Source: Apostichopus japonicus
Lineage: Eukaryota; Echinodermata; Holothuroidea; Aspidochirotida; Stichopodidae
DNA length: 64,000 bases
NCBI RefSeq assembly: GCF_037975245.1
Contig: NC_092572.1
Coordinates: 9,878,001-9,942,000 of the forward strand
Direction: 5' to 3'
Shown here one piece after another: positions 354-34,817 of this stretch (positions within the stretch are counted from its first letter, which is position 1; the number at the start of each line of letters is the position of its first letter). The translations under genes were made by a program, and so were the position numbers. The notes beneath the pieces are model-generated. The model had not been told where the DNA came from, did not search any database, and was given only the letters and a program-made list of their open reading frames with translations.

Positions 354-370
354 ATGACGGCTTGGAAAAG
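354..370 (+). CDS. Gene 1 exon 1: start codon and first residues
   Basis: ATG at 354 opens a 17-base coding exon (MTAWK plus two bases of an Arg codon) ending at gtaggaatgtaac. Gene 2 has an equivalent 17-base exon at 18989-19005 followed by a very similar donor and intron start. That conservation is why this start was chosen rather than the internal ATG at 3400. Joined to exon 2 it gives a basic start followed by a hydrophobic stretch, a normal signal peptide. Confidence 0.6.
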
Positions 371-3300
371 GTAGGAATGTAACTATATAACCTATTATAT
401 CTAGCACAGTGGTTATCTGCCAACGGCCTTTGATCCTTAACGTAACATTGATGTGTTTGGTACTGTGAAATAGATGACAATTAGTGTAGTAATGGTACTT
501 GTTACGTACTTTATATTCTCAAATTGTATGTTTGGATTAGCTAAAAAATATAGTGTTAAGTTATAAAATTATCAAATGATTAAATGTAAAAGCAGTGAAA
601 GCAGGTTGACTCAAATGCGTTTATGAATGTCGTAACAAACAAATATGACTGTTTCCATTATAGCATACTTCTGGTCTGTTATTAATAATACGGCAAAATA
701 CGTGTCCCGGAGGCGTTTAAAACAAAAGAGTCTGGAAATGGCATGGCACTGAATAGACACTGAACAGAAATGTTGCTATCATGTGATAGTAAATCAATGA
801 AGTAATGAATGTCTGTGACTACCTTTTCAATCTAAATGATTACGGCGAATCGGCGTGCGGGGATCACCAGTGACTGTAAACAGCAACTATTGACACGATT
901 ACCACTGTGTGTTTCTTTCCGTTGTTTATGCATGTACTGTGATGCTTGGAAAAGTTCAATGCAGAGGAATACAGAGTTAATAATACTTGTCCAATTCATC
1001 ATTTGAAGTAAAGTTGTAAATATTTTCAATTACTAACTATTCGCAAAACCAAAATTGTGTACAGTAAACAAAGCAAAAGAAAGGATGCGTTTTATCTTAA
1101 ATTTTGTTGATAACTGTCAAATAAATAATGTCACTGTTTTTTTTTTTTAAATTATTATTAGATTTTGAAAAGGCGTTTGAATGGAACTTAATTTTTGATT
1201 GCTTATTTAAAAAAAATGTTAACAACAGTTTCATTAGATGGATCCGAACGTTTTATTCTAACTCCTCAGCTTGTGTAATTAATATTGGCTTTTCTTCTCC
1301 ATCCTTCAGAATTTCTAAGGGGGTACGTCAAGGCTGCCCTCTTAGTCCATATATTTTTACCATTTGTGTAAAGGCACTTGCTATTAAAATTAATTCTTCT
1401 CGTATATTAAAATGTATTTCTATTGTAGGTACTGAGTGTAGACTTATTCAATAGGGTGATGACACCTGTATTGTATTAGTATTAACATTTTGGAGCTTTC
1501 TTCTGGTTTAAGAGTAAACTATGACAAGTCTAATATTTTCCCGTTAGGTCCCCTTGCTTCTAAGATGCCCTATTTCTTAAGGAATTTCTCTTTGTGTGGA
1601 CCTAAGGTCATGTCACGGTCTTGGAAATTGCCTTTGATAACTGTCAAAATATTCTTTTTCGCCTTTATCATCCCCAAATTTATCACGTCTAAAATATATT
1701 TTAACCCTATGGTCCGCTCGTGACCTTACCCAAGAGGCAAGTTTACAATCTTCAAATATTTGAGTATTTCTCAGTTTGTCTTCTCGTTCCAGATCCTCCC
1801 TGATCCCCCGCTCTCTTCATCAAAGAGTTAGAGAACTCAGTTTTTCGCTTCCTTTGGGGTGGTAAACCAGATAAAATAAGCGTTATACGCTCTCTGCCAC
1901 TACTAGTTTGGGTGGCCTAAGGGCCATCCATATTCTTTCTTTTTATCCGTAGCTTGAAATGTGTGTGCCACTGGGTGAAATGGTACACTGAAGCGGTAAA
2001 TGCTGATTGGAAACTTTATTTTGACCTTTATTAGAACAAATATGGAAAGGATCTTCTTTTTAAATTTAACTATTCTTGTAAGGATATTGCTATTCCTAAT
2101 TCATGTATTAATGATGTACACTTTGCTTGGGCTAATTATAATTTTAAACTTGTGGAAGATAAAGGTTGTATAACCATCAATGATCTGTTAGATGACGGTT
2201 ATATAGCTTTAAACTTTATTAACTTTAAACGTATTCATTTTATAGAGGATTTCCCTTTCACCTTATTTTATGGCCTTATTTCTGCTCTCCCCAGGCACTG
2301 GAAGAATATTAGGACCCCACTGTTTCCCATGTTTCGCATACGACCCACGTTGAAAAGATTCAGTGTACTCCTTTCCTCTCCAGGTGTATTTACAAGAAGT
2401 TAGTTAACTCCTATATTTCTCCCCCTACTTGATCCAATAACTGGACCCGCTCCGGTGATTTAGATTTAAGTGATGATCAGTGGCGAAATATTTTTCTCAT
2501 TTCCTTTCTCTTCTGATGAAAGTTAAAGGTTCAGTATTTCCAGTATTTTTTTATCTATCGCATCATTGGCACTAGTTACCTTCTTCACCGTATGCAAATT
2601 AAGACTAATGCTCTATGCACTTTTTGTTACAGATGTGAATAGACCATTGATCATTTTTTTCTGGGATCGTGAGATAACCTCCAGCTTTATTTTAGGGGAA
2701 CAGTTTGTTTTCTCAAAGCAGAATCTTGTTTATGGTTATAAATTAATTCAACAGCAACCACATAATTTGTTAATCTTGCACCTGAGGTATTATATCTTTA
2801 GTAAAAAGTTGATTTATGAGCCTCATAGTTTATATAAGTTTATGTACAAGTTTAAGTTCTACATGCAAGCTCAAAAGAACATCGCCAGCGGTGGTAGCAC
2901 TCAGCAGTTTTCTTTCAATGACTATGATATAGCTTGTAAGAACGGTCCCTTTCTGTGTAATTAATTGGCTCCTTCTATTATTCCATTCAGTTATGTTCAT
3001 TACATTCAGATACAAATTATATGTATTGTGTTGAAGTAAGAAAAAAGAGTACTATGGGTGTCACATATGTTTGTATTATTATTACAACATTGACAGAATA
3101 GAAACGAAATATGATTGTTACGTTAAGAGAAGTATTATGTTCATTATGTCACATTAAGAGATATGTAAATATTGTAGTATAAAATTAACAAACGAATCAT
3201 AAACGAGTTGAGGACTAAAAACAAAACAAAAAACTATGAAATGCCTGGCCGGCCTATGGAATGCTGTAAACTGATAGTTCCGGCACTGGCAGCAAGATTA

Positions 3301-6300
3301 TAATCGTCATTGAAGTATTGTTTGGTAATGAAAATGCGAAAAAGCTGCAAGAAGGTTTACCGGTAGTGTTATTTCTTTTATCTGTTATCTATTAGAACCA
3401 TGTCGACAACCATATTGCTGCTACTTGCAACAATATCAAATAAAGGTAGGTAATAAACTTTCAATGAAAAGCTTTAAGTTTGAAGCTGTTATGGATTAAT
3501 ACGTCCTTGCTTTGAATCATAAACGTAAACTAACTTTAAGCACTGTAACTAATAATGTATTTACTTCGTTTATATTTTGAATTCATTGAGACTGCTCAGA
3601 AACAGTATGTCAATAAATTGACCTTTATATCTAATCCTGTAAATTATTATTGTTCTAGTGCATGCAGATATTACTAAGACTCCATCGAGTGGTGTCTTCC
3701 TGGAAGGTAGTGATGTTACATTGACATGCGTTGTTGAAGGAAATGAAAACGTTATTTGGGAAGATTTCAGTGATGCTACATCGATTTTCGTTGGCAAGGA
3801 AAAGAACACAGTAAAGAAGAAATATGACAACTTTGAGATAAGTTCAGTTGATGGAGATTTCAGTTTAATTATAAAAGACGTCCATTCATCAGATGAAGGG
3901 ACCTATATATGCAAAGACAGAGACAGACTTGCAAATGCCACAGTGTCAATCGGAGGTAAAGCATTTCAAAGCAATGAAACCTATTATAAACTAAAACAAT
4001 CTGGAATAGGGTTCACATTTCTAGCAATTGAGGAAAACAAAACAAACGAGGGAACAATCATTCCCTTTTGTTTACGGAACATGATTAACTTTATTGTCGT
4101 TTTTTATTGTTTCAGTTATCTGACAATTATATAAATAAATGAAAAATATGCTCAATCATGTATTCCGACAAAGATAAATACGTTTTTAACTGTTACAATC
4201 AGAATCGAGGTAATAACCAATAGGAATATAGTTTGCAGTTGATATTCGAAAATCATGACACCCAGAGAGGCAATTATATATAATGCAATAGTTTATGTTT
4301 AACTTGTGTAACTTTTATTGCGTTCAAGCTGGGGCCTATAATATATGTTAATCTGTCGAAAACGTATCTAATTTGACAGTATTACCGTACGTGTACCTCT
4401 CTGTAAAGCAGTCAGAAGCTACACAAGCATCACAGACTAGTACAGAGGTAAACATTACGTGTTCTGCATACAACGCTAGACCTGCAGTGTCTGTGTTCGA
4501 GCTAAGTGTCATTGGCAGTGAGAAGACGGTGATTATTACAGACGATAAATCCAATCTAAACGAAGATGGGAATACCTATAATTCATCAGCTTCTCTTCCT
4601 TACATCATGTCATCGGAAGAAATGTCGGTATGCTGCCGAATATTTAGAGACGGACTGTCTCTCAACCACATTGAAAATTTCAGTAAGTTATGTGTACCGT
4701 TAATACATTCATATAAATCAATGGAAGATGAGATTTTTTAAGGTGGTTGAGGATGACTTGGTGCAACTACAAACAATTGCTGGAAACAGGATGGAACATA
4801 GGAAACAATTAAAGAAACGTAAAATGCAGAATCGTTAAATCTATGAGCAATCACAACATTTTTGAAATAATATATCAATGTGGAAATGCTGGTTAATGTT
4901 ACATTTGATCCAAGTATCTAATTGGTACCTTCTCATGTAAAATTGTTCTCACATACGTTTTAGCACAACATAATTGTAAATGTTTTAGGAGTTTTGTTCG
5001 CAGAATTGATGATTAGAAATTCAATTTTCTTCAACATCTGCACTAATTTGATAAATAAAACGCTTTGATTTCAACACTACAGATCTACCGAGATGTAACA
5101 TAGCAATCACTGGTCAAGAAGTTAGATGCGCATGTCAAGGTTATCCACCGGTGGACACATATTGCATGGATTTTAACGGACATATACACGAAGGAGTTTT
5201 GGATATTAAAAAAAGCAACTTGGCGAATATAACATGCTTTGGCAGAAACGGAATTGGAACCGGACGGTCCGATCTTTTGCTTCCTGGTGACAAGACTAGT
5301 AAGTACAGGGATTGTTATAGAGGAATGGATCATGTATGGAAGAAATATAAGGCTTACGTTAATTCTCATCATAGAATTTGATATATACGTGCTTAAGAAG
5401 TAGTTTCTCACCAAGAATTATCGGGTTTAATTTTAAATGTGCTTATTAATTTTATGTTGTTCTAAAAAGGATAATTCTTTTTCTTTGTTGAGACAGCTCT
5501 AACCATTGCTGCCATATTCGTTACGACTGCACTTGTTCTCACGGTTATTGTTGTTGCTGTTATATACATAATTCATCGAATCGGCTCTAGGAAAAAGGAG
5601 TCATGTGGTATGTAATATATCTACTGATAGATGGGTAAATGGATGGGTTGGTGGATGGATGAGAGGATGGATGTTTGTATATAGACCTACACAGAAAAAA
5701 TGATTTGTGGAATGAAACTGGGATGTGAGTTGTGGTTCACGATGTACAAACTACCATGACATTTATGATTGTTTTACCAAAGCTGCTAATAAACAAAACA
5801 GCCCGGTGAGGTTGGGCCTGTATTTTGTTAAACAAGTCAGATAATATGTGCCTGTTTTTGGAATTAAATTACCATTGTGTCACGAGCTAGTTCTGTTACT
5901 GTTCTTTGGTTGAGAGATTTCTGGGCTTTGGGCAGCTAATTCGAAGCTTCCCCTATGTTGAATTTTGAAAGAATATGTTCAGACTTAATAGAGCACCCTA
6001 AATTGTATGGATGACGGTAAATTAGAATAAGAATGGTCCAGTTACATTTATGAACAAGAGTGGCTGACAGGAGTCAGCACCAATTCTCAGTGCAAAGTAT
6101 ATATCAAAATGAATGATATTTTAACCGAAATGGTAAAATTAAAAGGTAATACAGAAACGTTGACTTCAATTATGTCTTCATTAAAAGACAAATTAATAAT
6201 ATTTGTTTAAATACATATATAAAGTAGTGTTTATCAGGACAATGCCCCGTCAACAATATCGAAAATCTAAGCTATGACTACTATTTTTCAATATGCTGCC

Positions 6301-9300
6301 GATATTTAACATGGGTAGAAAATGGTATTTTTCGAATATTAATTTTTGATGATATGTATAAGTTGTTGATCTAACATCACCTTTACACTACATTTGTTCA
6401 TAAACCACTGACGAACAGAACACTGACTTATTTGGATAAATATATAAAGCTAGTTTTACCCTGACATGTGTCATATTCATATTAGGATACTTTGACTTTC
6501 TCAGCTGCTGTTAAACTTTACAACAAAATGAATTTAACAAACATAATGTATTATTATCAATATTTTTATTATGAATATACAAGTGCCGCTAAGGTACGTT
6601 TTGGTTACGTAGATTAACAGTTTCAACTAAAAAACCAATCATATGATAGATGATGGTTTGACTATTCGCGCATTATTCGCGCACTTTGCAACGTTTGCTG
6701 TCATAGTTAGAGTTTGTTAAGCTAGTCGATCTCCCACATTATCAACACTGGCTTTCAAATCAAATTTACCTCTACAGTACCTTATGAATTTTATCATCAA
6801 CAGCTCCAGTAAAATGGCGCAAAAGGGAAAAGTAAGTTATAGAATTCTCTCAACAACGAGAAATAGACGCAGATGCCTTCACAGGAAGTTCCTGCAATCT
6901 AAACATCAATAAGCGTATGCAGTTATAGTTAAGACACTATCTAACACTAAATGACATGTCCTTACTTACAAAAAAAATTTAAAAAATACAAAGTAATGTG
7001 AAAAAGAAAAAAATGGAAAAAGAGAACAAGTGATGGGCCGCAAGACTGTACTTTTCAATTATAATATGTATTACTTGCGGTTAAACTGTTGTTACGTTAA
7101 AGTAGTTACATACGTGATAAATTAAGCAATGTGAAAGTGTGTACGCTTATTTCGTCTTTATTTAAGGAAAGTTTAGTACTTTCAAATCAAATCAAAGTCA
7201 TAATCCTCAGCCTGTCTCCTCAGATATTCTTCCGCCACTTGCCTTTGGTTCATTATTGTTTGCTGCTACAAAGTTTGACTGTTAAATTTCTAATTTTTGT
7301 CTAGAAATGAAAATACAACAAAGCATCAAATAAACATACAGAACAACGACGTTCTAGAAACTGACGAGCTAAGTACGTTTTGTTTTAATTTTATTCCTTT
7401 CGACAGAATTTCAAAACATTAGTTGATAAGTTTCAAACAATATCGTTGTGCATGCTGATATGCGAAGGCAACTGATTGCCAGACAATGTTGTTCATTATG
7501 ATTATTAGTGTTAACAATTCCTTTAACAACAGCGCATCAAGGGGATTTTCACTTAGAACAAAAGTTGAAGGGTTGAGGGCAGAAAAGTCGAAATTTCCTT
7601 ACACTGTGTTAAAAGTTCGTGACTTTTTATCGACTAAGAAACATTATGTATAGTTTCTGCATGTTTAGTAAATTGTTCAAATTGCCTGTAAATGGCTAAC
7701 ACTTTTGAAACAGCAGTCTAGCAGTCAATATCTGCCTGCGATTTGGGTTTTTACTTTTCGGGCAGATATATACCTTCCCATGTCATTGTATCAAACAATT
7801 CTCTCACAGATTACTATTCTGCAGCTGATGTAAAAGAAGGAAGAAGCCCAGTTATTGTCGATGAGAAAGACATCTCCATCATAAATAGTATGAAGATGGG
7901 GAATATATACAACAGATGGTTGGGGACCGTCAATCTCCCTAGTAGATCTAATACTTGTGTCGTAATAACGAGCATCACAGGTTAGTGGAATAAAAACACA
8001 AAATTAAGTTGCGGCGATCACAATATCAATACCGTAACTCAATAAAATAACAGTTTTTGACAAATGATGTGAACATAATGTAGTTCATAAATATTTAAAT
8101 AGATGGTGGAGTCTGTAAACATGTCATTGTGGCCAAATTTAATTATTCATTGCGGGAAGAATGAAACCTGGAAACAAAATATAATATCTCCGACACGATT
8201 GCTGATTTCTTAATGTAAATGTTGTAACAACAGTTCCTGGTATTGTATCTTGGTGAGATTTGGTGACACGGAAAAATAACCATTTTTATATCATCTTAGC
8301 AATTAATTTAACCGCTTTCAGCAATTTCTATATCGATACAAATTGTAATACCACTGTTAGTGTTATATGTCACATGAAGTATGAATCTATGAAAAACACG
8401 CGTAAATGGTCTGTTTTGGTATTGTGTATAATTGCAGAAATAGTTAGGAGAACCGACAACATCCATTGGGAAGCTTTTCTGAGAAAATGTCTTCAGTTGC
8501 CGGAATCGAAGAATCTTACGAACATCGAAGCAATATCTATTCAAAGTAGTGAGTTTTAATTTTAAATGATTAACTGTGAAAACTGTGAATACTGAGGATT
8601 TCGATATTCTTTCCATAAAAAACATAACAGCGCAGCAAAGTCAAATTGGTTTCAATACTATCCCAACGTTAGTCACTTTAAAATATTGTGTTTATTCGCA
8701 TTCATTAATCTGATTTCCTCCTCTCTTTTAGATAACCTGTATCTCGTGAGCGAGCATCTTGTATGTGAAACTTTACATTGTTTGTTGACTCGAGAAACAG
8801 TAGAAAAAAGGAATGTATATTGTTGCAGTTCTCTGCCTGACGTCATTAAACACGTCACTGGTCTTTTGGAAGGGATGCATATCATAAATACGTATGGGGT
8901 AAGTTATGAAAATCTTTCAATTTTATTTTTATTTAGAGGTTTATGGTTGCTTAACGTAGCATTCTTTTTATCTTCTTTGAAATGTTAAAAATTAAAATAT
9001 TTTAACTTAAACGTCAAGCAAGCGTAAATACTACACACAACCATATCTTTCTTGTGAATTGTTGATAGGTAATTTATATCATAATGTTGTTATAAAATAA
9101 ATTTGCAAACGAAAGTGTCGAAATAATTATATTTTTTATTACTTTGTTACTGTTATTATAACCAGTTCCTTCATCCCGGCTTAACGACCAGGAAACTTTT
9201 GGTCACCACAGATGGACAACTTAAATTGTACGACTTCTGTCTCGATGGCGACGCACCAAGCATAGCTGCTCTGAAGAGATCAACGGTTATTCTACATTTT

Positions 9301-12300
9301 TTCTCAAATAATTGAACATAGTAGCATTATCAATCCCTGTTTCTGTCCGTTAGTATTAGTTAGCCCAAAATAACCCACAATGTGCTTTGCATATACTCTA
9401 TAAGCAACGTTGCAATGATTAAAGCGTAGATTGATATATTATGACCACAAACTACGTTATAACTTTGATTAACAATCTTGAGGTGTGACCACTTAATAGT
9501 TCGTTACCTCAAGGTTCTCTCGGGACTTGAAAGAACCTCAACTTAAAGTTGGGTACTAGATAAGGCTGTGACTAACTTTACTGTTTTTTGTATTTATGTT
9601 CATATTTCCTTGGTGAAAGTTAATCGTGGAAGTATTTAATTCATTGAAAATTGTTAGGTGTTTTTAAGAACGTCAATATTTTCGATTTGGTCATTTAAAG
9701 AAACTCATTATTATTATAAATAAGCAAACAACATAAACATTGAGACACATGTGGCTCGATGGTGTTTATTAATAGCTTTCTTTAATATTTGTTCACGTCA
9801 TCGATCTCATGTGAGAGTGGTTATTCAACTTGTGATATCTTCCAAAATGTCGGAATTTGTCTGGGACTAATGCATTTACTCAACCCTCACAGTAACAACA
9901 ACCAAAACTGCACTTACAATGGAAATTTACCCTCTATTTATATTATTATCCTTCCACAATAGATGATTTCAGCTACTTTGAATCAATTTTCACCAGAAAC
10001 GTTGATTTCCAGCGAATACACAGAGTCAAGTGACGTGTGGTCTCTGGCAGTAACGATATGGGAAATCATGTCCAATGGTAAAACAAAAACGTACTGTTAT
10101 TCTTCCATGGATGTGAAAGAGCATATCCAGATTGGGTGTTGTGAATAGTTTGAAACTTAGTCAAGCAGGACTTGTTTACTGATCAAGGGGATTTGTGTAC
10201 AGTTAGTCAATAGCTCTTCATGCATAATATGATATCATTCACATGATAAGTGTCATTGAACAATAACCAGGAAACGAAATACGAATCTAAACTTGTTAAG
10301 TACTTAATAGCATACGATCAATTCGCTGAATATGTCGAGGAATGTTATAACACGGATCCTCTTTTTCCTACATCAGAATGTTACAAAAGCTCATAAGGTT
10401 TGTAAATACTATGTTATGTCATTGAATTTAATTACAGGAAAGTCACCTTTCCCTGGTGATACAGAAATTACGTCGCATAAAGAATTGTTTGAACCATCAT
10501 TACCTTGGCCGGAGAAATGCATCCAGATAAAGTAATTATAAATTCCATTAATATGGATATTGTTTTACTTTGATGGAGGTTATGTATATGATTGTTGTAT
10601 TTATCTTTTGACATAAATATTTTAATATGGATGAAAGGATAATTCATTATTATGATTATGATGATAACCCGCAATTAATGTGATGACGTGGAACTTGAAA
10701 ATACGATGACTAGGATATCCTTGAAAGAAAAGTTGATCATGAAATGTTCCTTTGAAATAATTTCCGCAGACTGGTTTGCTCCATATAACTTAAGCAAAAG
10801 GCAAATTGGTAATGGTGCGGTCCCAGTGCCGACCTTGCGCTACTCGACCTACTCGACCTGAAGGTCGAGTTGGAGGTCGAGTTGGTCGAGTTTGAGATCG
10901 AGTTAGGTCGAGTCAGGTCGAGTTAGGTCTAGTCAAGTCTACTAAGTTTTTGAAAATTTTTTGACATGTCAAAAATTTTGGCCGATTTCCTCATCGACCT
11001 TGTGTCGGAGATGGGGTCGAGGTAGGTCGAGAATAGGTCGAGGTAGGTCGAGAATAGGTCGAAAATAGGTCGAGGTAGGTCGATTAGAGGTCGGGTTCGA
11101 GGTCGAGCTGGCCTGACATGCCGATCTGTGTTCGCCTCTGAATCGATCTGTACAGACTTGTTCTCGACCTTAACTCGACCTGGGCTCGACCAGAAGTCGA
11201 CCAACTCGACCTGAAGCCGACGTATCTCGACCTCAGCTCGACCAGAAGTCGACCAACTCGACCTAAAGCGGACGTATCTCGACCTCAACTCGACCTAATC
11301 GAGTCCGCGCCGTACTGCAAGTCAGCGTGTGATGCCCCTGTTGCCAAGTGACGTAGCGTTACCGCCAGCTTCAGTCCAGGCTCCAAAGGAAACCTACAAA
11401 TACAGATAATTTTAATAAACATCCTGAATAACAATCAGACTTGTAGTGTGAGTACAATAGCTGAGTACGAGTACAGGACCTATTTGCTGATCGTGAGTAC
11501 GAATACGAGTACATAGCCCAGATTACGAGTACGAGTTGCACTAGCGTCAAGTTCCAAAAATCCTGAGTACGAGTACGGGAACATTTTAAAATTCACGAGT
11601 ATGAGTACAGCATTACTTCGTTGCATGTGTACTCGAGTACGGACTCACTACAAATCTGATAACAATCATAAGTAACAATTCCATACAACATTTCATAACA
11701 TCTATTTAAACAAACAACATGCATAAGTATGGTAGGTTTTTGTACTCACATAAAGTTGGTGGTCTTCTTGGTGATAGCTGGAGATATCCTGTCGAGTATG
11801 TACCCAAACGTGTCAGCATCTACTCTCAGGAAATTACGGCAACATCTGGAGTCCTCTCTGTTGAGCTCGACCAATAGATGCTCGTACTGCCCAAAGAGGG
11901 GTCGTCTGGCCAGCCAGTCTCTGACCACAAGTCTTCGCCTCCTGGCCCTCCGACGTCGGCGGCCCTGCTGGGAATGATGTGCTTGCGGCTGAGGAGGAGG
12001 GTTGGCATGCTCAAGTTCATCCGCCAGTTCAAGCAGGTGCCAGGCAGTCTGCACCCACATTGTAAGCAGTCTGCGCTTCTCTGGGCTCAACAGGTTTACG
12101 TCAAGGTTCATGATGGTGATGTTACTACTTTGCAGTCCCCAAATTTAATGGGTACCTGGTGAAAATTGCCGCTGTAATTTATACAATTTGGAAACCAAGG
12201 GGATTCTCGGCAGACAAATCGAATTTCCGTCGCGAACCAGTCGCCCGGGTCGAGCTCAGGTCGAGTAGAGGTCGGGTCGGTCGACTTAGGTCGATATAGG

Positions 12301-15337: not shown

Positions 15338-15511
15338 ATAAAAATCCTTGAGCTGAACGAGAAAGTCAGCAATGCTCGATAGCTTTCTAGAAACTGAACC
15401 AAATATTGACGTCGCGTGATCATAATTCGACGAATAGCATACAGTACTCGTCTCGTAACATGGCCAGTAAACGGTATACCGTTGGATAACTGCATCGATC
15501 CTTCCATCTTT
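15338..15511 (-). other. Conserved minus-strand exon-like block X1, copy A
   Basis: A 174-base minus-strand block from gtctttag to gtcagt that is open in the frame KDGRIDAVIQRYTVYWPC, continuing to SRKLSSIADFLVQLKDFY. The copy at 51915-52088 has the same length, an AG and a GT at the same edges, and is open in the same frame (KDGRIDEVFKRYIVYWPC). Equal length, shared frame and shared splice edges in two diverged copies suggest a real exon of an unrecognised minus-strand gene. Another frame is also open in this copy but is broken by a stop in the other one. Confidence 0.4.
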
Positions 15512-18663: not shown

Positions 18664-18988
18664 ATTAATTTCCAAACATTTGCCCACATGTTGCGAAAAA
18701 AACGCTACATACTGTACCGCATAATTCCTGATATGTAGGTACGCTCTTAAATGACAAAAAAAGCCTCGAAGATATTGTTTTTATCTTATCTTGGGGTGAA
18801 TTATTTGGGTACAGCGTATAAATGTGAATAACCCATGATAGTCGTTCCATGACGTGACGGCAGGTAATCTGTCTATGTAATTATCACCATTAGACCTTGA
18901 ACTTTGTCAAGGCTTTTATTCAACTTTCGTTTTGCAGTTTTTATTGTACTGTGAAGTACCGCCATCGTTGACTTACATACATACCGCT

Positions 18989-19005
18989 ATGGAGCCTTTG
19001 AAACG
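18989..19005 (+). CDS. Gene 2 exon 1: start codon and first residues
   Basis: ATG at 18989 encodes MEPLK plus two bases of an Arg codon, then gtaggaatataac. It was chosen because exon 2 has no ATG in frame (the base triplet matching the internal ATG of gene 1 is ATT) and because gene 1 has the same-sized exon with a similar donor. Confidence 0.6.
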
Positions 19006-25000: not shown

Positions 25001-28000
25001 GCTAAGAGTACGCCTACATTTCTTCTTTTCTTCTATAGAAATGTCCGATAGAAAAAATACAGACGATGAGGAAGCTTCAAGTATTTCCCCTAATCTGGGA
25101 GTACTGGACTGTTCTATCACAATTAACAAAAGTATAATATTCAATCATTCACTTCGAGAAAAACAAATGCATCGTAATTTAACAATGAGAGCACACTTGT
25201 TTCTGCTTGTTATTTCCTTCAGTGACTCGTCATTTCCACAAACGGATCTAACCAGCGACTCCAAAGGTACATATTTATGATTTTACTTCATACCTCACAT
25301 GACCTATGTTAACAAGACAATACCATTAACACTCCACCATACAATAATTACTACGTACTCTAGTACTAGGAACTGTTTTTTTGTTAACAAACTTGATAAT
25401 GGTAAATCCAAAATTGAGCTTGGTTGTCTTGAAAGCATACCAATAGGAACAACAGATTAGACCATGGTATTTCAGTAAAATATCTCATAGTTTCCTCTAC
25501 AACCAAAGACAAAGCTGTCGTCACTCGTAGTTCTTAGAATGCACTTGCCAGTTACACACTTTGCCTAACAATAATTACTCATTCAGGGTTACAGTAACTT
25601 AACACTTTCTGATATTGGAGACGTGAATGTAATAATTGTTTTCAACGTTTTATCATCTCTTGATCTGAAACAATGCTATGTGGACAAACATTTTTTTCAA
25701 ATGAAAACGCTTACATTTTAGTTTCTAAATTTGTCTTTAAATCTGTCTTCAGAGGTAACAATATGGTATGATAGACAAATTCATAAGAAACAAAAATAAA
25801 GTTGGCATTTTAGGCAGTTGTGTTTGATCAAATTACACAAACTTAACTCATTGTCTTCAAGATACATGTATTCATTTGTTGGAGAGTATTGGCTAGGTAC
25901 TCATCTTCAAGAAAACTATCGAGGATATAATATAAATAATTCAACATATATTTCCACCCATAAAGATTTTCAGCCCCCAAAAATACTGTACTTGTGGGGT
26001 TATTTAATTTATTGTTATCACAACATAAGTATGACATATGACATAGAATGAGATAAGAAACAAAACTTATACAAATACTATATTTGTGGGGTTATTACAA
26101 ATATCTTTTCAGAATGAGATGTCACACAATAGCTTATATATGTCTAACTAACAAGAACACGTGGATGACACAGAATCAGTTCCTCAAAATAAAGAAAGCC
26201 TGTCAAATGTAGACGTCTTTCTACGTTATGACAACACCTATAGTACCATAATTAAGTAGTAAAACAAGTTAGTAAAAGCATACGTTTGGAGTTGCCCTGA
26301 CCTAAGCCTTTCATCCCTAAGAAATTAATGATATATTATGACTATTTTCATCAAAACATTGTGTGACATTTAATAAAGCCCGGTCAAAAAATATGGCAAA
26401 TATTGTTTGTTTATTATGTCCATTTAATTTCATAGATCCAGAGAAGTTCATAAGTAAAATTCTATTGCAAGTCAATAAAGACTGGGAAATTTTCGCCGTT
26501 GACACTTTAAACATATCAGAAAGAGTTGTGAAAGAAGCAGTGATGAAAAATAACAACTTAGAAGGTGAGAATTTCATTATTTTGATTAAGAATTGGTATA
26601 GACGCTAACTGGCAAATAATATAAGAAAATTATCTATTAAATTGTTTTGGATTTCACCAGAATTTTTTTATAAAATTAATCGTCCGCATGATTCTAGATT
26701 ATATTCAATTAGATTGTACCTTGCATAGAAATAATTCTTGCCATTGAATTCATCGCAGACCAAATAAACGCAGCTACTAAAAATATGACATCTGATCACA
26801 TCGAGGTATTAGACAAAAATGCAGAATTGTGGAAGAAATTTGGCTTTGAATACGTTAAGGGAGAAAACGGATGCTTCTTACAACACATTACCAACACACA
26901 AGCTGGTAAGTGTATTAGTTAATTTGCTCTTTTGTTGAGAGCAACCATTTAATTTGAGTTTGTGGAAACCTAAGATCTTAGTAACAGGTTATTTTTACTA
27001 GTGTCTGCAATGTCTCTGCAAATTTATTTCTTACCAAACTACTTGTAGTGGGTGGGTAAATATTCCCTTTACCACCGCCCGGCTTCGAAGCCAATTAAAA
27101 GAGTTCATCATGTAACTAGTTTTATTCTAAATCACTCATTTCTTATTGTTTAATTATTACTCTGCATGTAAGTCTGGACGTGTCGTGTAATTATGTATTA
27201 TCATGAGTATGTTATGCAATATTGCTATAATACTCTTCCCATCTCCCTTTTTGAATTGCAAGGGGCTCTACAAACATATTAACTCTGATTTTATTTTGTC
27301 TTTAATATCTAAACATGAAGTGCAACTCGTTAACATCCCGCTTCCTCTCCGCTTTAGACTACATTTATCGTGTTTTTTTATAAACACAATTGGATGTGGT
27401 AGTAGATTTCTGCTACTTTTATAATGTGCAAGTTTTTAACGATATTTGTGCTTTCGTGGTTTATTTTCTTACAAACGCCTTTTTCTAAAGTATTTATTAT
27501 TGATAAATTCAATTTTAAATTTCAAGAAATTTTTCATTTTAGACTTAATGCTAGAAGCATCCCAGGAGAATGCTGTTACGAATATTTCAAGTAGGTTCGT
27601 TTGACTTTTTCTCTTTAGTTGAAATAAGTCTTAAAAGTAAAACATCATACGATGACTGAGAGGAACGAAATAATCCAATCAATATTACATGACATAATGT
27701 AGTCATTGAAACAAGACAGTTCCAATTGAAAAAAAATGTCTACACATTTTTCTACTGCTACTTTTAGTCCCGGAAGTGACGACATATTAGTCTCATGCGG
27801 AATCAGAATTGGTAAAATTGGAATGAAAAATCTTTTGAAAGCATTCGGCGAAAAGTATACTGGAAGTGAGGATGGTGCCACTATCTTGAAAATGTTAGAG
27901 CATACGAATGTGATAAGGAAACCGTATGTCAATCTTTTGCGAAAACTTACAAAGTGCAAAATCTATGGAGCGAGGAAAATACTACTTTTCAAATTCGAAA

Positions 28001-31000
28001 CAGGTTGGTGAATTATGATATTGCAAAGTAACCTACGACATTGTCAAGGTCGCACAAATTTACAACTTGTTTTTAGTTCTAACTTATATTTCTACAAGGT
28101 CACAGTTTTTGAATGTCAATGTGAAGCTTTTGTATGTTAAAAGCAATTAATATGATATGTGTTAATATTATTTGATAAGTGAGAATATATTTCGATTTAA
28201 TATCTCACTTGAAAATAATATCACGGTATCAGCGCTATTGTTTAAGTTTGTAATAAGAAATAAAGGAACTAGTTCGAAACGCATTCCTATGACAGTACAT
28301 AGTTTTACGGGTATTCAAATATCTTAATTCGTAAACATTTACTATATTGTGATCCATAATTTACTATATAATGTAGTTTGCTCTTTGAAGTCATTGTTTC
28401 CTTCCGTAGCTTTGGTTGCCTTTGTAAGAAATTGAGATTAAAGTGGATTGTATGAATGACACGGTAATATGGTTGCAACATCACCATCACAACAATGACA
28501 TGTCCAAGTTACGTTACTACCTTTTCAAATTATGTATTAGATTTACAGCAACTAAAAGCCACCATACGAAACTATGTGAAGAATGACTGGGAAATATTTG
28601 CAATCGAAATTTTAGACATACCAAAAAAACTTGTAGAGGATGCGGTTATAAACTACGACACTTACAAAGGTGAGATGTACTATTTTGTTCTTATTGTATA
28701 TATATATATCGATGTTAATTATTAAATATATACAACCTAATAAGTAAAATGGAAGAATCATCTGAAAGAAGAATTTGTCTTGAATCTGAGTTCCAGTACC
28801 GCAATCATAGATTCTTTAGTGTTAAATCCTCAATATTATCCGGAAATGACAAATATTTCCTACGATTGTTTGTAGATCAAATTGAGGTAGTTATAAGAGA
28901 AATAACAGCGGAGCATATTGGAATGATGGATGACATCAACACGCATAACAAGTTGGAGAAAAAAAGGATACTGTCGGAGTTTAACCTTCAATCTGTTGAG
29001 AAAGATGGTAGATATAACTTCAGAAACCTGGACAGCACACAATCTGGTAAGACTGTTTGATGTGTTTCCCACTATTAAAAGACTTTATTTTTAAGCAATT
29101 ACGAGTTTTTATCTACATATGAGAGTTAGTAAAACCAAAACCGACCAGATCATATAAGATGGCTTTTGAAATGTTTGTATACTCCACTCCAGAAGTGGTT
29201 ACGTGTCAACAACATGCATGTATACATTGTATGTGTGTTTGACCGTACAAGTAAGTCGTTAAGCTCAAGTCATCACCATTCACCTCGCACGAATTGAATT
29301 ACACTGTGAAGGTGGCATTGTGTCCGGTAGACAATTGAGTCCCGTTTGGGTGAGTTTCAAACAAGTGTACACGTAGCTTTGTCGTTGGATTAATATTTAC
29401 AAGTAGCACTAGTATATAATATACTAGGGTCTTACTCTCATACTGCAATTATCGACATTTCTTTGATTTTCAGAGGCTAACTTAGTATCTTATAAACAAT
29501 AATTGCGAACAATATCATGTGTATGTTACTGAACTTATTTAAACTTCAGAAAAGTCGTCAAACGAAGATATCATCTGCAAACAAGATCCACCAACGATCG
29601 AGAGCAGGTCTGTTAACTTTCTCTATTTGTCCTATTATGTGTATTATATGAACTTTACGTTTATGTCTTCATGTGGCCGCAATGTATACGCACTAGCAAT
29701 GTAATAAATGCAAAAGCTAGCACATGTTTCAAAACGACATTTTGTGTTTAATTTTCTATTCTCATTTCTTATTCTATTAACCATCGACTTTGGTAACAAA
29801 AGAGACGATATGTTAAAATTATGCAGAGAAAGAATTGGGAAAGTTGGGATTCGTAGACTTTTGGCAGCATTGACAAAAGGCGATATTGAAACTGAAGATG
29901 AAACCAACGTCTTGGAGAAGCTGCATAAAGATGGAACAATAAAAAAAGACTGTGCAAATTTGCTCTCAAACCTTTCAGACTGCAAACTGTTTCGAGCAAG
30001 AAAGATAGTGATTGCTTATTTAGAAGCAGGTTTGTTATAATTTTTAAATTTAAATGATATGAAGATATGTGATACAAAGTCTCAATAAAATATCTTGAAA
30101 ATTCTAAAATTGCTCATTTTTTTAACATATTGCGTTGATGGGATATGTATTGGTAATACTGATATATTTATAATTATCATAATATCATTATTGGTTCGTT
30201 TTGATTTCAATTTGGTAATCTGACTATTTTTAACATACTGCTCCATAATTGTAGAATTGTACCATTCGTGCTACCAAATAAAGCTATTTTGGTATAACTG
30301 TTGCCATTCGTACCATCAAAAGTTATTGCGAATGTGTTCCTTGACTTGTTTGAAATGCCCGTCTCCGTAAGTATGTACGCGTACATTTGGAATGATGTAA
30401 ATGTAATATAAAATACTGGAAAATTATCAAAGTCCATATTATTAGAGCTGATGCCCTGTAACTAAAGTTAACCACTCCGGATCTGATATATTGGTGCTAA
30501 TACGTTACCTTCGAAACATATGTTAACTCTCACTCATAAAAATGACTATTTCACCACAGACCTTTGGAATTACATCACCGATAGCATCTGTCCACAAATA
30601 TCTTTGGACTGGGAAATTTTTGCAGTCGATGTCCTGAAGTTGCCTCCTAGAAAAGTTGTGGATATAATTGAACACACTAAGGACGAGAATGGTAAATCTC
30701 ACTTGAAAAGCGCTTTGTCGTTATGTTTATTGAAATGTAGCACAATTATATGTATGTCTAGAGTATTAAATCTAAGTTGAGGGGGCACAGAAGTTCATTA
30801 CCAATAGTAAATATGATTTTGATTTGATAGTTTATCACCAAAATAACTGCCCGGTATAATGCATATTTAATGCACTCAACAGCACAATGAATTATTCCAG
30901 TTTGAATGTTTTAAATTGAAACCGCACTGTTTTTACAAACACTCCCTCTTTACTCATCTAAAAAATGTTTTATTCAATGTTTGGCAAATGACGCGATTCT

Positions 31001-34000
31001 TAAAATAATTAATTTTAATAAAACAGAGAGCTAAACTGTAAATTTTTCATTAACCTAAAGGTCTACTAGTAGTTCCTACACTGGGTAGCTTGATGTTCCG
31101 GTACCCGGAATCACCCAAACCTCTGCCTCGCCCCCCCCCCCCCTACCACGACTAAGTACTTTAATACCCTGTTCTCATACAAATAGACTCGCTACCAATA
31201 ATTCATCCAGAAAAACATACCAAACGATCACAAAGGAGTTTGGATTTCTATTTTAAGTTGTTGTAAATCTACGTGGATAGAGCACAGAAGTCCAAGGGCA
31301 GGAAGAATGTGATATTAAACGAAATCTATAGAAATAACTTAAATAACCGCTAAGCACAGTGGATCATCGGTGCTTTTTTTCAACAAATGACAACAAATTT
31401 TTGGTTCTAGGTTTAATGGATTCCCACACATGGCACTTTGTGTTCTAATTGTTGACTTGTTATCAATATCTCCAAGAAATGTCTGAATTAAAAAAGAAAA
31501 GAAAAAAAAAAGCACTTTTACAAGAATCAAACAGAGAACAAACGGGTATTGTTTAATGTTTAAGGAAAAGGGTAACTTACAGTTGATGTAAAGATCACTG
31601 GACCCCGACACCCTTAATATCTTGGCTCTCCGCCCCTGGCCGATTATGTTAATATATGTGTTCTCGCACATAAACTCAATACTCCAATTATTTGTTTGTA
31701 TCAATGTTATTTCGACGACAATGAAACAAATGATTCACACTGTATTCCATTATGAAATTTTGACTATGTATTATATATATGTATATAAAGTAAAGGTTTA
31801 GTGACATAACATTGAGTAATGAACAGTTGAAATAAGCTGTAAAAATTATACAAAAAAAAAAACATTTAAACGGCTGCAACTGAGTCTTAATTTATCATAA
31901 ACAGTTTAAGGATAATGTTTTCTTCATAAATGTTAACTAACAAATTATTCAGTGAGCAAAATGATGCTAGTTTGTTGTATAGCAACTTCCTATTTCGGGA
32001 AATGCGTTCTTGAATTCTCGAAAACCTGCCTTAATTCAAATAGGGAACCATTTCTTATGTAAAAGATCAGACGATATAAATCAATATATTTGATTTTCTG
32101 TTAACTTTTCAGGGCAGGTGCTGAGCATGTTTAGAAAATGGAGGCATGCGTGCGGTCATGAGACGGGAATTTCGAAGCAGTTTCTGCAAGATCTCATCAA
32201 CGCCAGAGAAATCAGCAGTAAAACACTGTCAAAAGACAACAGACCAAACAATTCAAAAGGTACAAAAAAAGACTTAAATTGTATTATCAGCCTGATTCAT
32301 TGTAGAAAATTGTAATCAAGTATGAATTTAACATAAGTTCTGATAAGTAGATACCAGAAAGTAAATTGTCTTGACGCAATGTGTAAGTTTACTTTTGGAA
32401 GTCACAAACTGCCAGTAAGTTAATTTACGTATTTGCTTCGGATAACAGGTTTGAAATATTTAGCTTCTTGAAAACTTGCTTCGCTTAATCAGTTTATTAG
32501 CTACATTAAGCGATGCAATAAATGTGTTATGAAATAATAATTTTCTAGATGCGGGTCTATGGCATTAGCACCTGGCATATGAATTCACAACGGCTTGTAT
32601 TTGTATTAAAATGGGGAGAGGATAAAAGGAACTGATTAGAAGAACTTTTGGGGGAAAATGTTCTTATATATAATATAGGCACATTATTACTATTACTTGA
32701 CTTGCACAAGGAATTTCCTAAAGATTTACGTTTGAAAAAAAAAGTGATAAGTATACACAAAATCGTGTCTAGCAAATCCAACACATCTTTCAGCCGAAAT
32801 ACTAAATTACTCAGGTCACGTTTTACTTGATATACTCAACGGAATAAAATGAATGCCATCAGAAATAATTGCATATTGAATAACGTGTATTGTTTTACAT
32901 ATAACTGTCAGGAAAATATGGGGGCAGCCAATTAGACCTGCAGAGTGCAGAATATTTGTATCTTAATTTATTACTTTTTATGTCTCAGACCTCACTTTGC
33001 ATCAAAGCTATTATCACTTTGAGCATTATAATTTCAGAGACTTTAACATTTTGAATTATTCTCAACATAAACCATAAAATTATCAGTTGTTGTGATACGT
33101 TTCTCATTTTTAATCAGTATGTTTGTTGTTTTATTTTCTTTTATAGGGAAACCCACCAACGGAGGTGATTGCAGGTATTCATTTTCACAATATTTATAAC
33201 TGTGTTTATTCTTTTTATTTGCTGTGATCAAATGTTCCTCGCTATTTAGTTGAACCTAATACAATGTTAAAGGATATATACCTGTATTACATGGGGTTCC
33301 TAAAATTCAATGTATTATAACCGTGTTTTGTTTTTATTGACAGTGAAGAGTTTTCGAAGATGTTAACACATTTAAGCAAGAGAATTGGTGTTTTTGGAAG
33401 AAAACGATTGGAAGAAATCAACTCTAAGGGTGTAAAAGTCAGAATTTTTGGACCACCAGAGGAGTTTCCAGTCAATGAAAGCTTTAACTCTCTAGGACAA
33501 TTGTGCTTTATGTTGTATGAAGCAAACCTATTTACAGCAAGAGATGTAGTCATAACCTACATTGAGAAACGTATGATACTTTTTCATTTTAAATTAAATT
33601 ATCTTGGTTGATGCATTATCAATAATGGAATCTTCTATAGTTTACACTTTTTGCTGTATGGGCAACTTTTAGTGTATTGTTTTCTTAATTAATATCTACA
33701 TTTGCCCCTAAACATGAAGGTGAAGGGAATATAATAACATGGTAAGTCGGCCATATTAAAACTAACTGCATTACCATTCTAATATGTGTGTTATGCTAAG
33801 GATTTAAGAGTAATTCTTGGTAGAAATTCAATCTCGCCATTTGCTCAGATGGATTAAGGTGAATCAGTCATTGTTAAATAGTGTCGACATTATTCCATCA
33901 GGAAAATCTTCTCAACCCCTTAAGAGCCTGGGGTATTTGTCCTCCTAATTTTATGACAATCCACACCAGTGCTCATATCATATTTACATGTGCTACTTCA

Positions 34001-34817
34001 GATTGAAAAAGTACCATCCATATATTCGTAAAATGTGTCCTTTCCGCATTAAATTGACATTTATTTTCTTCAAACATTTCTCATTTACATCAAAGTCACA
34101 TGTTCACCTACAAATTGCACGCTCTTCACGACCCATTTGTTTGGTATGATCCAATATAAATGTCATGAGGTCTATCCTTTTTCAATCTCATTCATATACT
34201 TAGAACTACATGAGGTAATAGAAACCATTTCGAAGAAAAGAGCATCTGATTGGGACGAATTAGCATTGTATGGCTTATCCCTATCCGGTAATGATGTTGC
34301 TTACCTAGAGAGAGCAGCCGAGTCAAACGAAGGCAAGTAGTTTGTGATTCATGAACGTTGAATATGTCAACATCATCTATAATCGGTACACTTTAAGTTT
34401 GGCATTGACCTTGCTTTAGACTGAACTTGTTCTTTTTAAAATAAGAGGTTTACTCTTGTGTTATGTAAAGTACCTCACTGCAATTAAGTGCACACTTCTT
34501 ATGTGATACATGTGACATAATTGTCATGAACTGAAAAAGTACAATGGGAAACTATTCTTGTTGCCATCAGTATTTGTTTTATATCCTCAAGGGGACTGTC
34601 AAGAGTATGTTATAGGATTATATGTTGATAAAAAGAGTCCAATATTAACATTAACTTCATTCAACAGTATTTATTTACGTAGTTTTTACTTGTCTATTAC
34701 TTAGCACGAGTACTCATGGCTATCTGCAAGTGGATGAGAACAAAGAAAATCAATAAAGATGTTCAGAAGACCTTGCAACAAAAAGCCTCTGATACTATAT
34801 CTAAGATTAGGTACTGA
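18989..34817 (+). CDS. Gene 2: three-Ig, single-pass receptor with four death domains and a repeated helical module (multi-exon span)
   Basis: Proposed exons: 18989-19005, 19612-19661, 19846-20142, 20540-20842, 21389-21607, 22092-22202, 24018-24078, 24305-24330, 24467-24527, 24756-24781, (25039 onward), 25223-25266, 26436-26564, 26759-26905, 27543-27594, 27768-28003, 28541-28669, 28876-29046, 29550-29607, 29803-30029, 30560-30691, 32113-32259, 33147-33174, 33344-33570, 34204-34332, 34705-34817. The ectodomain is a close paralogue of gene 1. Inside the cell come acidic low-complexity exons, then a repeating exon set: A and B (the two halves of a death domain), a linker, and C (a second helical module). 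The set occurs three times, followed by a final A+B with a stop. Phases repeat as 1-1, 1-1, 1-2, 2-1 in each set. Death domains bind other death domains, so assembly of a signalling complex at the membrane is expected. Apoptotic or NF-kB-type output is inference. Expression of the whole array as one transcript is not proven. Confidence 0.75.
19612..19661 (+). CDS. Gene 2 exon 2: signal-peptide core
   Basis: A 50-base exon between ctgtaag and gtaagt reading [16 protein letters not shown]. With MEPLKR it makes a typical signal peptide. It ends in phase 1. Confidence 0.65.
19846..20142 (+). CDS. Gene 2 exon 3: Ig-like domain 1 (V-type)
   Basis: A 297-base phase 1-1 exon. Cysteine in [10 protein letters not shown], tryptophan in NVVWEDF, second cysteine in [13 protein letters not shown]. 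Same length and boundaries as the gene 1 exon at 3659-3955, with mainly conservative differences. Confidence 0.85.
20540..20842 (+). CDS. Gene 2 exon 4: Ig-like domain 2
   Basis: A 303-base phase 1-1 exon ([36 protein letters not shown]). It keeps a single second cysteine where gene 1 has two. There are several N-x-S/T sites. The donor is gtaagt. Confidence 0.82.
21389..21607 (+). CDS. Gene 2 exon 5: short Ig-like domain 3
   Basis: A 219-base phase 1-1 exon ([35 protein letters not shown]), one codon longer than in gene 1. This membrane-proximal domain is distinctly less conserved than domains 1 and 2. Confidence 0.72.
22092..22202 (+). CDS. Gene 2 exon 6: transmembrane helix
   Basis: A 111-base phase 1-1 exon. 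A hydrophobic run ([20 protein letters not shown]) is followed by the basic stop-transfer stretch CRPGPREKK. It ends in phase 1 at gtaatt, which is compatible with both the acidic/death-domain exons and the pseudokinase juxtamembrane exon at 44549. Confidence 0.8.
22260..22510 (+). repeat. GGAT-type degenerate microsatellite
   Basis: Repeated GGATGGAT, GGTGGGTG and AATGGATGG-like units in the same intron position as the shorter repeat of gene 1 (about 5628-5675). Confidence 0.6.
23649..23670 (+). repeat. Perfect 10-bp hairpin
   Basis: GTACCGAAAG, a two-base spacer TC, then CTTTCGGTAC. Intronic. No terminator or regulatory role can be claimed. Confidence 0.5.
24018..24078 (+). CDS. Gene 2 acidic exon A
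   Basis: A 61-base exon (phase 1 to 2) after cttcccacag, reading [16 protein letters not shown] and ending LILKS at gtgagt. Charged, low complexity, cytoplasmic. Confidence 0.55.
24305..24330 (+). CDS. Gene 2 acidic exon B
   Basis: A 26-base exon (phase 2 to 1) reading EHKPPGNE, between tcttag and gtaatt. Tandem copy at 24756-24781. Confidence 0.5.
24467..24527 (+). CDS. Gene 2 acidic exon A' (tandem copy of A)
   Basis: A 61-base exon (phase 1 to 2) reading [20 protein letters not shown]. Same length, phase and splice sites as exon A. Confidence 0.55.
24756..24781 (+). CDS. Gene 2 acidic exon B' (tandem copy of B)
   Basis: A 26-base exon (phase 2 to 1) reading EQIPHGNE, between atattag and gtaatt. 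Confidence 0.5.
25039..25094 (+). CDS. Gene 2 possible acidic exon, 3' end unresolved
   Basis: After ttctatag the phase-1 frame reads [20 protein letters not shown]. No donor in phase 2 (needed for the exon at 25223) was found. Phase-1 donors occur after AGCTTCA-A and farther on, so it may splice directly to the first death-domain exon. The end given is only where similarity of character stops. Confidence 0.35.
25223..25266 (+). CDS. Gene 2 possible acidic exon
   Basis: A 44-base exon (phase 2 to 1) after tccttcag, reading [14 protein letters not shown], donor gtacat. Its phases fit splicing from exon A' (phase 2) and onward to the first death domain (phase 1), making it an alternative to exon B'. 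Confidence 0.45.
25267..26435 (+). other. Intron ahead of the death-domain array
   Basis: AT-rich sequence of about 1.2 kb. I see no exon, RNA gene or recognisable element in it. Confidence 0.4.
26436..26564 (+). CDS. Gene 2 death domain 1, first half
   Basis: A 129-base phase 1-1 exon. [20 protein letters not shown] then [15 protein letters not shown] fits helices 1-3 of a death domain (l...ia...W..lA..L.l....v..ie). Same length as the first-half exons at 28541 and 34204. Confidence 0.7.
26759..26905 (+). CDS. Gene 2 death domain 1, second half (diverged)
   Basis: A 147-base phase 1-1 exon ([18 protein letters not shown], then [12 protein letters not shown]). Same length as the second-half exon at 32113 and homologous by position and start to the one at 28876. 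The usual mL..W....g motif of helix 4-5 is weak. Confidence 0.55.
27543..27594 (+). CDS. Gene 2 linker exon 1
   Basis: A 52-base exon (phase 1 to 2) reading [17 protein letters not shown], from ttttag to gttcgt. Equivalent linkers are at 29550 and 33147. Confidence 0.45.
27768..28003 (+). CDS. Gene 2 module C1 (DED-like helical domain, tentative)
   Basis: A 236-base exon (phase 2 to 1). [16 protein letters not shown], later [18 protein letters not shown] and [15 protein letters not shown]. All three C modules share RIG..G.+.L near the start and L...L..c.l..AR.++...+E near the end. The second half recalls death-effector domains (L...g.i...n...L..L....r.dl...i). This assignment is a guess. Confidence 0.55.
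28541..28669 (+). CDS. Gene 2 death domain 2, first half
   Basis: A 129-base phase 1-1 exon after tgtattag. [20 protein letters not shown] then [16 protein letters not shown]. The core DWEIFA is shared with domains 1 and 3. The acceptor at 28540 was chosen over the AG eight bases later because only it keeps phase 1. Confidence 0.7.
28876..29046 (+). CDS. Gene 2 death domain 2, second half (diverged)
   Basis: A 171-base phase 1-1 exon ([18 protein letters not shown], then [15 protein letters not shown]), from gtag to gtaaga. It starts like the exon at 26759 (DQI...). Homology with the death-domain consensus is weaker than in domain 3. Confidence 0.5.
29550..29607 (+). CDS. Gene 2 linker exon 2
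   Basis: A 58-base exon (phase 1 to 2) reading [19 protein letters not shown], from cttcag to gtctgt. Confidence 0.45.
29803..30029 (+). CDS. Gene 2 module C2 (DED-like helical domain, tentative)
   Basis: A 227-base exon (phase 2 to 1). [16 protein letters not shown], later [20 protein letters not shown] and [16 protein letters not shown]. The acceptor (acaaaag) has a poor pyrimidine tract but is the only one keeping the frame. Same length as C3. Confidence 0.6.
30560..30691 (+). CDS. Gene 2 death domain 3, first half
   Basis: A 132-base phase 1-1 exon. [20 protein letters not shown] then [20 protein letters not shown] matches helices 1-3 of a death domain well. It ends at gtaaat. Confidence 0.72.
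30692..32112 (+). other. Intron inside death domain 3
   Basis: A 1.4-kb intron with a poly-C tract near 31130-31143 and A-rich stretches. No exon or complete element recognised. Confidence 0.4.
32113..32259 (+). CDS. Gene 2 death domain 3, second half
   Basis: A 147-base phase 1-1 exon. [20 protein letters not shown], then [12 protein letters not shown] is the clearest match in the array to helices 4-6 of a death domain (a..mL..W....g...t...L...L.....). Joined to 30560-30691 it completes a canonical domain. Confidence 0.75.
33147..33174 (+). CDS. Gene 2 linker exon 3
   Basis: A 28-base exon (phase 1 to 2) reading GKPTNGGDC, from tttatag to gtattc. Same phases as the other linkers, shorter. 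Confidence 0.4.
33344..33570 (+). CDS. Gene 2 module C3 (DED-like helical domain, tentative)
   Basis: A 227-base exon (phase 2 to 1). [16 protein letters not shown], later [20 protein letters not shown] and ITYIEK. It shares RIG..G.+.L and A.LF.AR..+.Y+E with C2. The middle part is the most diverged. Confidence 0.58.
34204..34332 (+). CDS. Gene 2 death domain 4, first half, with a GC donor
   Basis: A 129-base phase 1-1 exon. [20 protein letters not shown] then [17 protein letters not shown], a standard death-domain first half. The donor reads AAG|gcaagt, a GC-AG intron. No GT donor in the right phase is nearby. Confidence 0.68.
34705..34817 (+). CDS. Gene 2 death domain 4, second half, and stop
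   Basis: Terminal exon after ttacttag. [20 protein letters not shown] matches helix 4-5 of death domains (.L..W), then the protein ends IRY-stop at 34815-34817. AATAAA overlaps the stop codon (34817-34822) and repeats at 34821, so the 3' end would fall in the adjoining (TA)n repeat. Confidence 0.7.

Follow-up and report, generated by a model that had tools for sequence, protein, structure and literature searches.

A tandem receptor family of the sea cucumber Apostichopus japonicus in which one Ig ectodomain is probably wired to either a death-fold array or a pseudokinase

How one cell-surface ectodomain could serve two unlike signalling tails is the question raised by a stretch of the Apostichopus japonicus genome (C12:9878001-9942000; 64 kb, hereafter the window), in which two neighbouring genes encode immunoglobulin (Ig) domains and a transmembrane (TM) segment, followed by a receptor-tyrosine-kinase (RTK) fold in gene 1 and by death domains (DDs) in gene 2. 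A receptor family normally keeps to a single signalling logic for its ectodomain; in this one, a death-fold scaffold occurs beside a putative tyrosine-docking pseudokinase. Judging from the sequence, we consider it probable that these are receptors with one tail each, the shared Ig-TM part being wired either to a scaffold of death folds or to a pseudokinase that docks partners through phosphotyrosine. A sequence-only reading had described a pair of neighbouring genes; the pair is real, but it is part of a tandem family of about 0.38 Mb with three layouts (kinase only, death only and both), which that reading had overlooked. The cluster was read over the window, 200 kb downstream of it and 20 kb further on, and cluster positions are given as region coordinates that continue the numbering of the window.

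Exons were joined with a splice solver (GT/GC donors, AG acceptors) and the output was compared with the public annotated proteins of C12. The gene 1 model reproduced P0019 (683 aa, 16 exons; canonical splicing) and the gene 2 model reproduced P0013 (960 aa, 21 exons; covering the first three DDs), each letter for letter. The Ig and TM exons had been described as equal in size and phase bar one Ig3 codon, which proved exact: in genes 1 and 2 the ectodomain exons measure 17, 50, 297, 303, 216/219 (Ig3) and 111 nt with identical exit phases (2,1,1,1,1,1), and the DNA is 83% identical across Ig1-Ig2 including the intron and 73% identical across Ig3. Since the TM exon of gene 2 exits in phase 1, it fits death-tail and kinase-tail acceptors alike, and the common ectodomain, made up of signal peptide, three Ig domains and TM, would be joined to either tail via interchangeable phase-1 introns. 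Ig exons are joined to death exons in P0013 (gene 2 Ig-TM up to DD3), in P0014 (10.24-Mb locus; Ig-TM and the death tail as far as DD4, its pieces mapped in order) and in P0021, and to pseudokinase exons in P0019, P0020 and P0002, in agreement with the claim of one ectodomain and two tails. Because public C12 protein models show each join, both receptor types exist at annotation level; Ig and death exons as separate genes were not seen in these models, which join them. A 450-bp tandem duplication (window 23974-24423 and 24423-24874; 87%) has doubled the juxtamembrane exon pair of gene 2, with the frame kept.

Both receptors of the original two-gene picture stood, but the picture lacked a second intact set of pseudokinase exons downstream of gene 2 (44.5-50.6 kb), which leaves one ectodomain with two tails behind it. 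When the window was compared with itself, the kinase half of unit 1 recurred at 42.3-55.3 kb, and this second copy holds all eight kinase exons. Homology between unit 1 and the upstream intron of the second kinase resumes about 160 bp past the TM exon, so the death stretch is absent from unit 1. The second pseudokinase is annotated as P0001 (361 of 362 aa reproduced from the window, the modelled last exon stopping one residue early), with a first exon 1.1 kb past the DD4 stop and no Ig. This annotation as a protein of its own, together with P0013 taking the death tail, would fit separate genes, gene 2 being Ig-death only and the second pseudokinase an Ig-less soluble protein driven by a separate promoter at about 35.9 kb. 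We regard that arrangement as unlikely, given that the gene 2 TM exon is in phase with the JK1 exon of the second kinase, the join giving an open frame of 685 aa, and that the P0001 label 'isoform X2' suggests more isoforms. The intron ahead of the second kinase carries an 888-bp tandem duplication (window 42180-43076 and 43068-43964; 99.8% identical), either a recent event or an assembly effect.

Tail choice in 'both' loci is instead probably made by alternative splicing. At the second 'both' locus, P0002 was reproduced exactly from part of Ig2, Ig3, TM (131072-131182), JK1 (156807-156834) and kinase exons, with GT-AG introns throughout; its TM-to-JK1 intron of 25.6 kb skips the death array, and K4 is skipped too. 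This canonical path from Ig3-TM to the kinase across the death array speaks against separate genes, under which P0002 would have to be a chained prediction or a sister copy now without its death form; the death array of that locus has no recognisable A2, as the latter would allow. Both joins are annotated for the 'both' class, each in a different copy, and the models may rest partly on prediction. Slightly short of an even chance, in our estimate, is the further proposal that one 'both' gene encodes two opposite receptors, the acceptor chosen past the TM exon leading to a DD/death effector domain (DED) array (death or NF-kB) or to the YxxM pseudokinase (survival or phagocytic). If true, the cluster would supply the animal with a tandem set of ligand-specific switches between death and survival, and its kinase-only and death-only copies would have arisen when one tail module was lost. 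Genomic exon order would also suit a giant receptor in 'both' loci, with Ig-TM, death array and kinase as a single chain, but this is highly improbable: the TGA at 34815-34817 closes DD4, just where the gene had been said to end (34.8 kb), and 0 of 23 returned proteins were seen joining death with kinase exons.

Might the two tails lie beside each other merely as fusion or deletion remnants of tandem duplication, kept open through youth alone? Some stretches of the cluster duplicated very recently (100.8-109.4 and 207.2-215.9 kb are 97.9% identical), the kinases of 'both' copies have a dN/dS of 0.65-0.86, so that constraint is moderate, Ig exons are missing from the sequence read at the third 'both' locus, and the second is without A2. 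However, among the kinase copies of the 'both' loci (DK1, DK2, DK3) the exons are free of gaps and the introns are not: DK1 and DK2 differ by 5.6% mismatch with 0 gaps in 959 exonic nt, versus 9.5% and 56 gaps in 3336 intronic nt, and DK1 and DK3 by 6.0% with 0 gaps in 778 nt, versus 10.2% and 41 gaps in 2328 nt. Compared with gene 1, exon divergence in the three copies is 8.0, 9.2 and 9.4% (one gap each, that of DK1 at an exon edge), and intron and flank divergence is 16.8, 16.1 and 15.9% (93, 89 and 63 gaps). No stop was found in the mapped kinase codons of eight units (316-320 of 320 codons; 258 in DK3, where the sequence read stops short of its end), whereas simulated neutral drift (substitutions only, single start sequence) stayed stop-free in just 3% of runs when divergence was 8%, and in 0.1% when it was 15%. 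Splice sites are also intact in the copies solved, and we judge such leftovers to be a distinctly poorer account than separate genes.

The RTK fold without catalytic residues that had been proposed for gene 1 was confirmed. Residues 401-645 of P0019 match PF07714 at 9.1e-28, and relative to FGFR3 the HRD motif is replaced by HPG, the loop Asn by Lys and DFG by DFC; HPG was found in 11 of the 11 family proteins carrying K4 (14 examined). The best 60 of 1066 PDB matches are mostly FGFR1-3 (best FGFR E 5e-18), headed by a single EGFR chain that matched in two stretches. The tail runs ..YEIP..YxxM.., with YxxM in 11/11 proteins reaching the C terminus (14 examined, the other 3 truncated upstream), a count without chance control among relatives rather than independent cases. 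As YEIP and YxxM are kept family-wide in the last exon, a partner kinase would phosphorylate the tail for SH2 docking. Phosphorylated YxxM is a binding site for PI3K p85 (the pseudokinase ErbB3 is an example), and the dead RTK-like tail is probably a phosphotyrosine scaffold on which SH2 proteins such as PI3K would dock. The receptor resembles FGFR-type RTKs in its Ig-TM-kinase order and its mostly FGFR1-3 relatives among the PDB matches listed, and, in our working model, ErbB3 in pairing a dead kinase with a C-terminal YxxM; unlike FGFR/ErbB3-type receptors, it has HRD Asp, loop Asn and DFG Gly all changed and shares its ectodomain family with a death-tail receptor. K4, the exon with the catalytic loop and DFG, is absent from P0002 and P0020 though open in the genome copies, possibly through alternative splicing of the dead catalytic loop.

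The death tail of gene 2 probably has the layout (DD-DED-like)x3-DD, as read from the sequence. Four death domains had been claimed for it, and this held, though it was not the whole tail: the joined tail passes the Pfam Death profile (PF00531; 24.7 bits versus a cut-off of 22.6, 2.6e-5, for an approximate query with two linker microexons slightly misplaced), in line with a place for 26.4-34.8 kb in the death-fold superfamily, but three helical, probably DED-like domains between the DDs had been missed. Among paralogues, P0022 scored 32.9 bits (7e-8) and P0014 22.9. DD3 and DD4 are identified by the Death profile and by their PDB matches, 12 of 14 of which are CRADD or FADD; DD1 and DD2 are assigned by homology to DD3/DD4 only (hhalign 96%, E 4e-9). 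For the C domains, the best rows of a structural model were DEDs of caspase-8, cFLIP and PEA-15, suggestive of a DED-like fold; Pfam matches of 14 C domains included no DED family, which divergent members can escape, and a Pfam scan of ten single tail open reading frames gave no Death match. Against the Death assignment, scores fall below the cut-off in P0016-P0018 (18.1-21.5 bits) and P0023 (13.1), and the Pfam scan listed no Death match for P0013 or P0015. The DD1/DD2 profile itself matched no PDB death domain in the sequence search, and an isolated C2 model returned no DED row. The introns solved are GT-AG with the sole exception of the GC donor of A4. P0013 ends before DD4, reading through past D3 to 32,312, and P0014, from a sister locus, extends through DD4. 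A long TA and GA microsatellite (window 34822-35062) immediately follows the DD4 stop.

The DD and DED fold types in FADD couple receptors to caspases, and the death tail would nucleate a FADD/caspase- or NF-kB-type adaptor assembly upon ligand clustering. The YxxM/p85 link and the FADD-like fold alternation lead to a working model in which a like cue may be routed to a phosphotyrosine or a death-fold scaffold. In the tail, DDs take turns with putative DED-like domains, the fold types of FADD (DED-DD) and of the tandem DEDs of caspase-8/cFLIP; unlike these, it lies within a transmembrane receptor and is repeated, which suggests receptors with built-in adaptor-like DD/DED alternation. UNC5 netrin receptors have an Ig ectodomain, thrombospondin domains, one TM and an inner part with ZU5, UPA and one DD. 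Gene 2 is like UNC5 in its Ig ectodomain, single TM and death domain inside, and unlike it in having four DDs, separated by DED-like domains; thrombospondin, ZU5 and UPA were not listed in Pfam scans of P0013-P0017 (E up to 1) and P0019-P0021. Nor was TIR, the domain of IL-1R/IgTIR receptors, listed for P0013-P0017, P0019 and P0020, or NACHT for P0013-P0020.

Sea cucumbers eviscerate and regenerate and, to our knowledge, have no antibodies. The cluster makes testable how a surface cue leads their cells to die or survive, and would be a natural case of rewiring one input to opposite outputs, in some copies from a single locus. Two reports describe A. japonicus membrane proteins, AjNLRC4 and AjNLR-new, in which Ig domains are fused to NACHT (PMC8699970, PMC13133943), and bacteria are reported to be bound by the AjNLRC4 Ig domains outside the cell (PMC8699970). 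Our receptors are similar in combining Ig domains with a signalling domain and different in the partner, NACHT there and a pseudokinase or death array here. The bacteria-binding receptor (PMC8699970) makes an immune role plausible but unproven here; immune or self/non-self sensing, the signalling outputs and the ligand stay conjectural. In amphioxus, an invertebrate chordate, domain shuffling yields DD/DED receptors among hybrid immune genes, and the study notes that tyrosine-kinase signals can be diverted towards apoptosis by chimeric DED-SH2/PTB adaptors (PMC2575513); the combinations in the passages considered involve LRR, TNFR, NACHT and TIR, not Ig with a death array or pseudokinase (PMC2575513). 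A 2026 preprint lists tyrosine-protein kinase receptors among families earlier reported as expanded (PMC13228809). Our literature search found no prior Ig-TM family pairing a pseudokinase with a (DD-DED-like)x3-DD tail. The parts are known; what appears new from the sequence is one Ig-TM family with both tails, side by side in some loci.

Table. Positions of receptor exons, domains and cluster units (window numbering, continued as region coordinates for the units)
Feature	Position	Strand	Basis
Gene 1, whole (Ig-Ig-Ig-TM-kinase)	354-13,944	+	
Gene 1 start-codon exon (exon 1; 17 nt)	354-370	+	exact P0019 model
Gene 1 signal-peptide exon	3396-3445	+	P0019 splice model
Gene 1 Ig1 exon	3659-3955	+	Pfam Ig_3/V-set/I-set; P0019 model
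Gene 1 Ig2 exon	4380-4682	+	C2-set_2 20.1 bits, slightly below cut-off 21; P0019 model
Gene 1 Ig3 exon	5083-5298	+	no own Pfam match; paralogue alignment, P0019 model
Gene 1 TM exon	5497-5607	+	hydropathy, P0019 model
Gene 1 juxtamembrane JK1, JK2	6804-6831, 7305-7372	+	P0019 model
Gene 1 pseudokinase K1, K2, K3	7810-7980, 8438-8548, 8732-8898	+	PF07714; exact P0019 model
Gene 1 pseudokinase K4 (HPG, DFC)	9166-9285	+	exact P0019 model
Gene 1 pseudokinase K5, K6, K7	9963-10077, 10438-10531, 13380-13461	+	exact P0019 model
Gene 1 K8 (YEIP, YVAM tail); stop	13843-13941; 13942-13944	+	exact P0019 model
Gene 2, whole (Ig-TM-death array)	18,989-34,817	+	
Gene 2 start exon, signal-peptide exon	18989-19005, 19612-19661	+	exact P0013 model
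Gene 2 Ig1, Ig2, Ig3	19846-20142, 20540-20842, 21389-21607	+	Pfam, paralogue alignment, P0013 model
Gene 2 TM exon	22092-22202	+	hydropathy, P0013 model
Gene 2 juxtamembrane pair, tandem-duplicated	24018-24078+24305-24330, 24467-24527+24756-24781	+	P0013 model
Gene 2 juxtamembrane exon	25039-25266	+	annotated as single exon; P0014 comparison suggests retained intron
DD1 (A1, B1)	26436-26564, 26759-26905	+	hhalign homology to DD3/4; within P0013
C1, DED-like; microexon ahead	27768-28003; 27543-27594	+	
DD2 (A2, B2)	28541-28669, 28876-29046	+	P0013 model; hhalign homology
C2, DED-like; microexon ahead	29803-30029; 29550-29607	+	
DD3 (A3, D3)	30560-30691, 32113-32259	+	Death profile; top PDB relatives CRADD/FADD
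C3, putative, most divergent DED-like; microexon ahead	33344-33570; 33147-33174	+	alignment with C1/C2
DD4 (A4, GC donor; D4); TGA	34204-34332, 34705-34814; 34815-34817	+	
Stretch absent from unit 1, ~20 kb (death tail and flanks)	22203-42281	+	sequence comparison
Alternative first exon of second pseudokinase (P0001, MLGNFYQLT..)	35957-35984	+	annotated
Second-copy JK1, JK2	44549-44576, 45074-45144	+	P0001 splice model
Second pseudokinase K1, K2, K3, K4	46039-46209, 46691-46801, 47003-47169, 47449-47568	+	P0001 model
Second pseudokinase K5, K6, K7, K8	48308-48422, 48703-48796, 49914-49995, 50483-50581	+	P0001 model
Kinase-only units	3.6, 107, 213 kb		mapped exon classes
'Both' units	19.8-50.6, 128.9-162.4 kb		mapped exon classes
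Third 'both' unit	death 239.7-251 kb, kinase from 260 kb		no Ig found in sequence read
Death-only units	68.7-91, 173.8-188 kb		mapped exon classes
Further death unit	C12 10.242-10.258 Mb		counted death-only; read up to downstream edge

Searches of the animal's own genome placed the death exons at six places, all at C12 9.90-10.26 Mb, and Ig1 at a minimum of nine (at least 9 matches, with 67 of 784 first-look candidates scored), all at C12 9.88-10.25 Mb and one of them at 10.17 Mb, beyond the sequence read. No kinase remnant was found behind the two death-only units within 264 kb. The death array of the second 'both' unit (135.5-149.6 kb; C12 10.0135-10.0276 Mb) has no recognisable A2 and its A3-D3-C3-A4-D4 block is doubled, so DD number varies between copies. 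Between DK2 and DK3 units, dS is 0.03 in kinase exons, 0.35 in death exons (without A2) and 0.26 in C exons, so that the modules differ in history. A kinase tree (FastTree, six sequences) put kinase-only and 'both' units on opposite sides of a well-supported split, and an Ig1-Ig2 tree (FastTree, seven sequences) showed no sorting by tail.

Relatives of the pseudokinase also lie elsewhere (C12 0.33-2.0, 7.18 and 21.4-21.7 Mb; C13 15.78 Mb), and no family Ig match was among the matches listed for the outlying HPG/DFC loci on C12/C13. Single-exon Death matches are numerous genome-wide (150 of 204 candidates scored), many of them on C12 outside the cluster (19.4-34.2 Mb). The first intron of gene 1 holds a reverse transcriptase fragment (window 1125-1451, +; RVT_1 4.4e-8), and a GC-richer insert (window ~10.7-12.7 kb; 42% in 10001-12000) between K6 and K7 has no counterpart in the second copy and looks transposon-like by eye, without sound Pfam support. 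P0017 (68.5-91 kb, annotated as death-only) has its DD1 and C1 separated by a long repeat of the TNNQAPRTDA type, and its C-terminus, which we take by eye to be reverse-transcriptase-like, is perhaps an annotation run-on.

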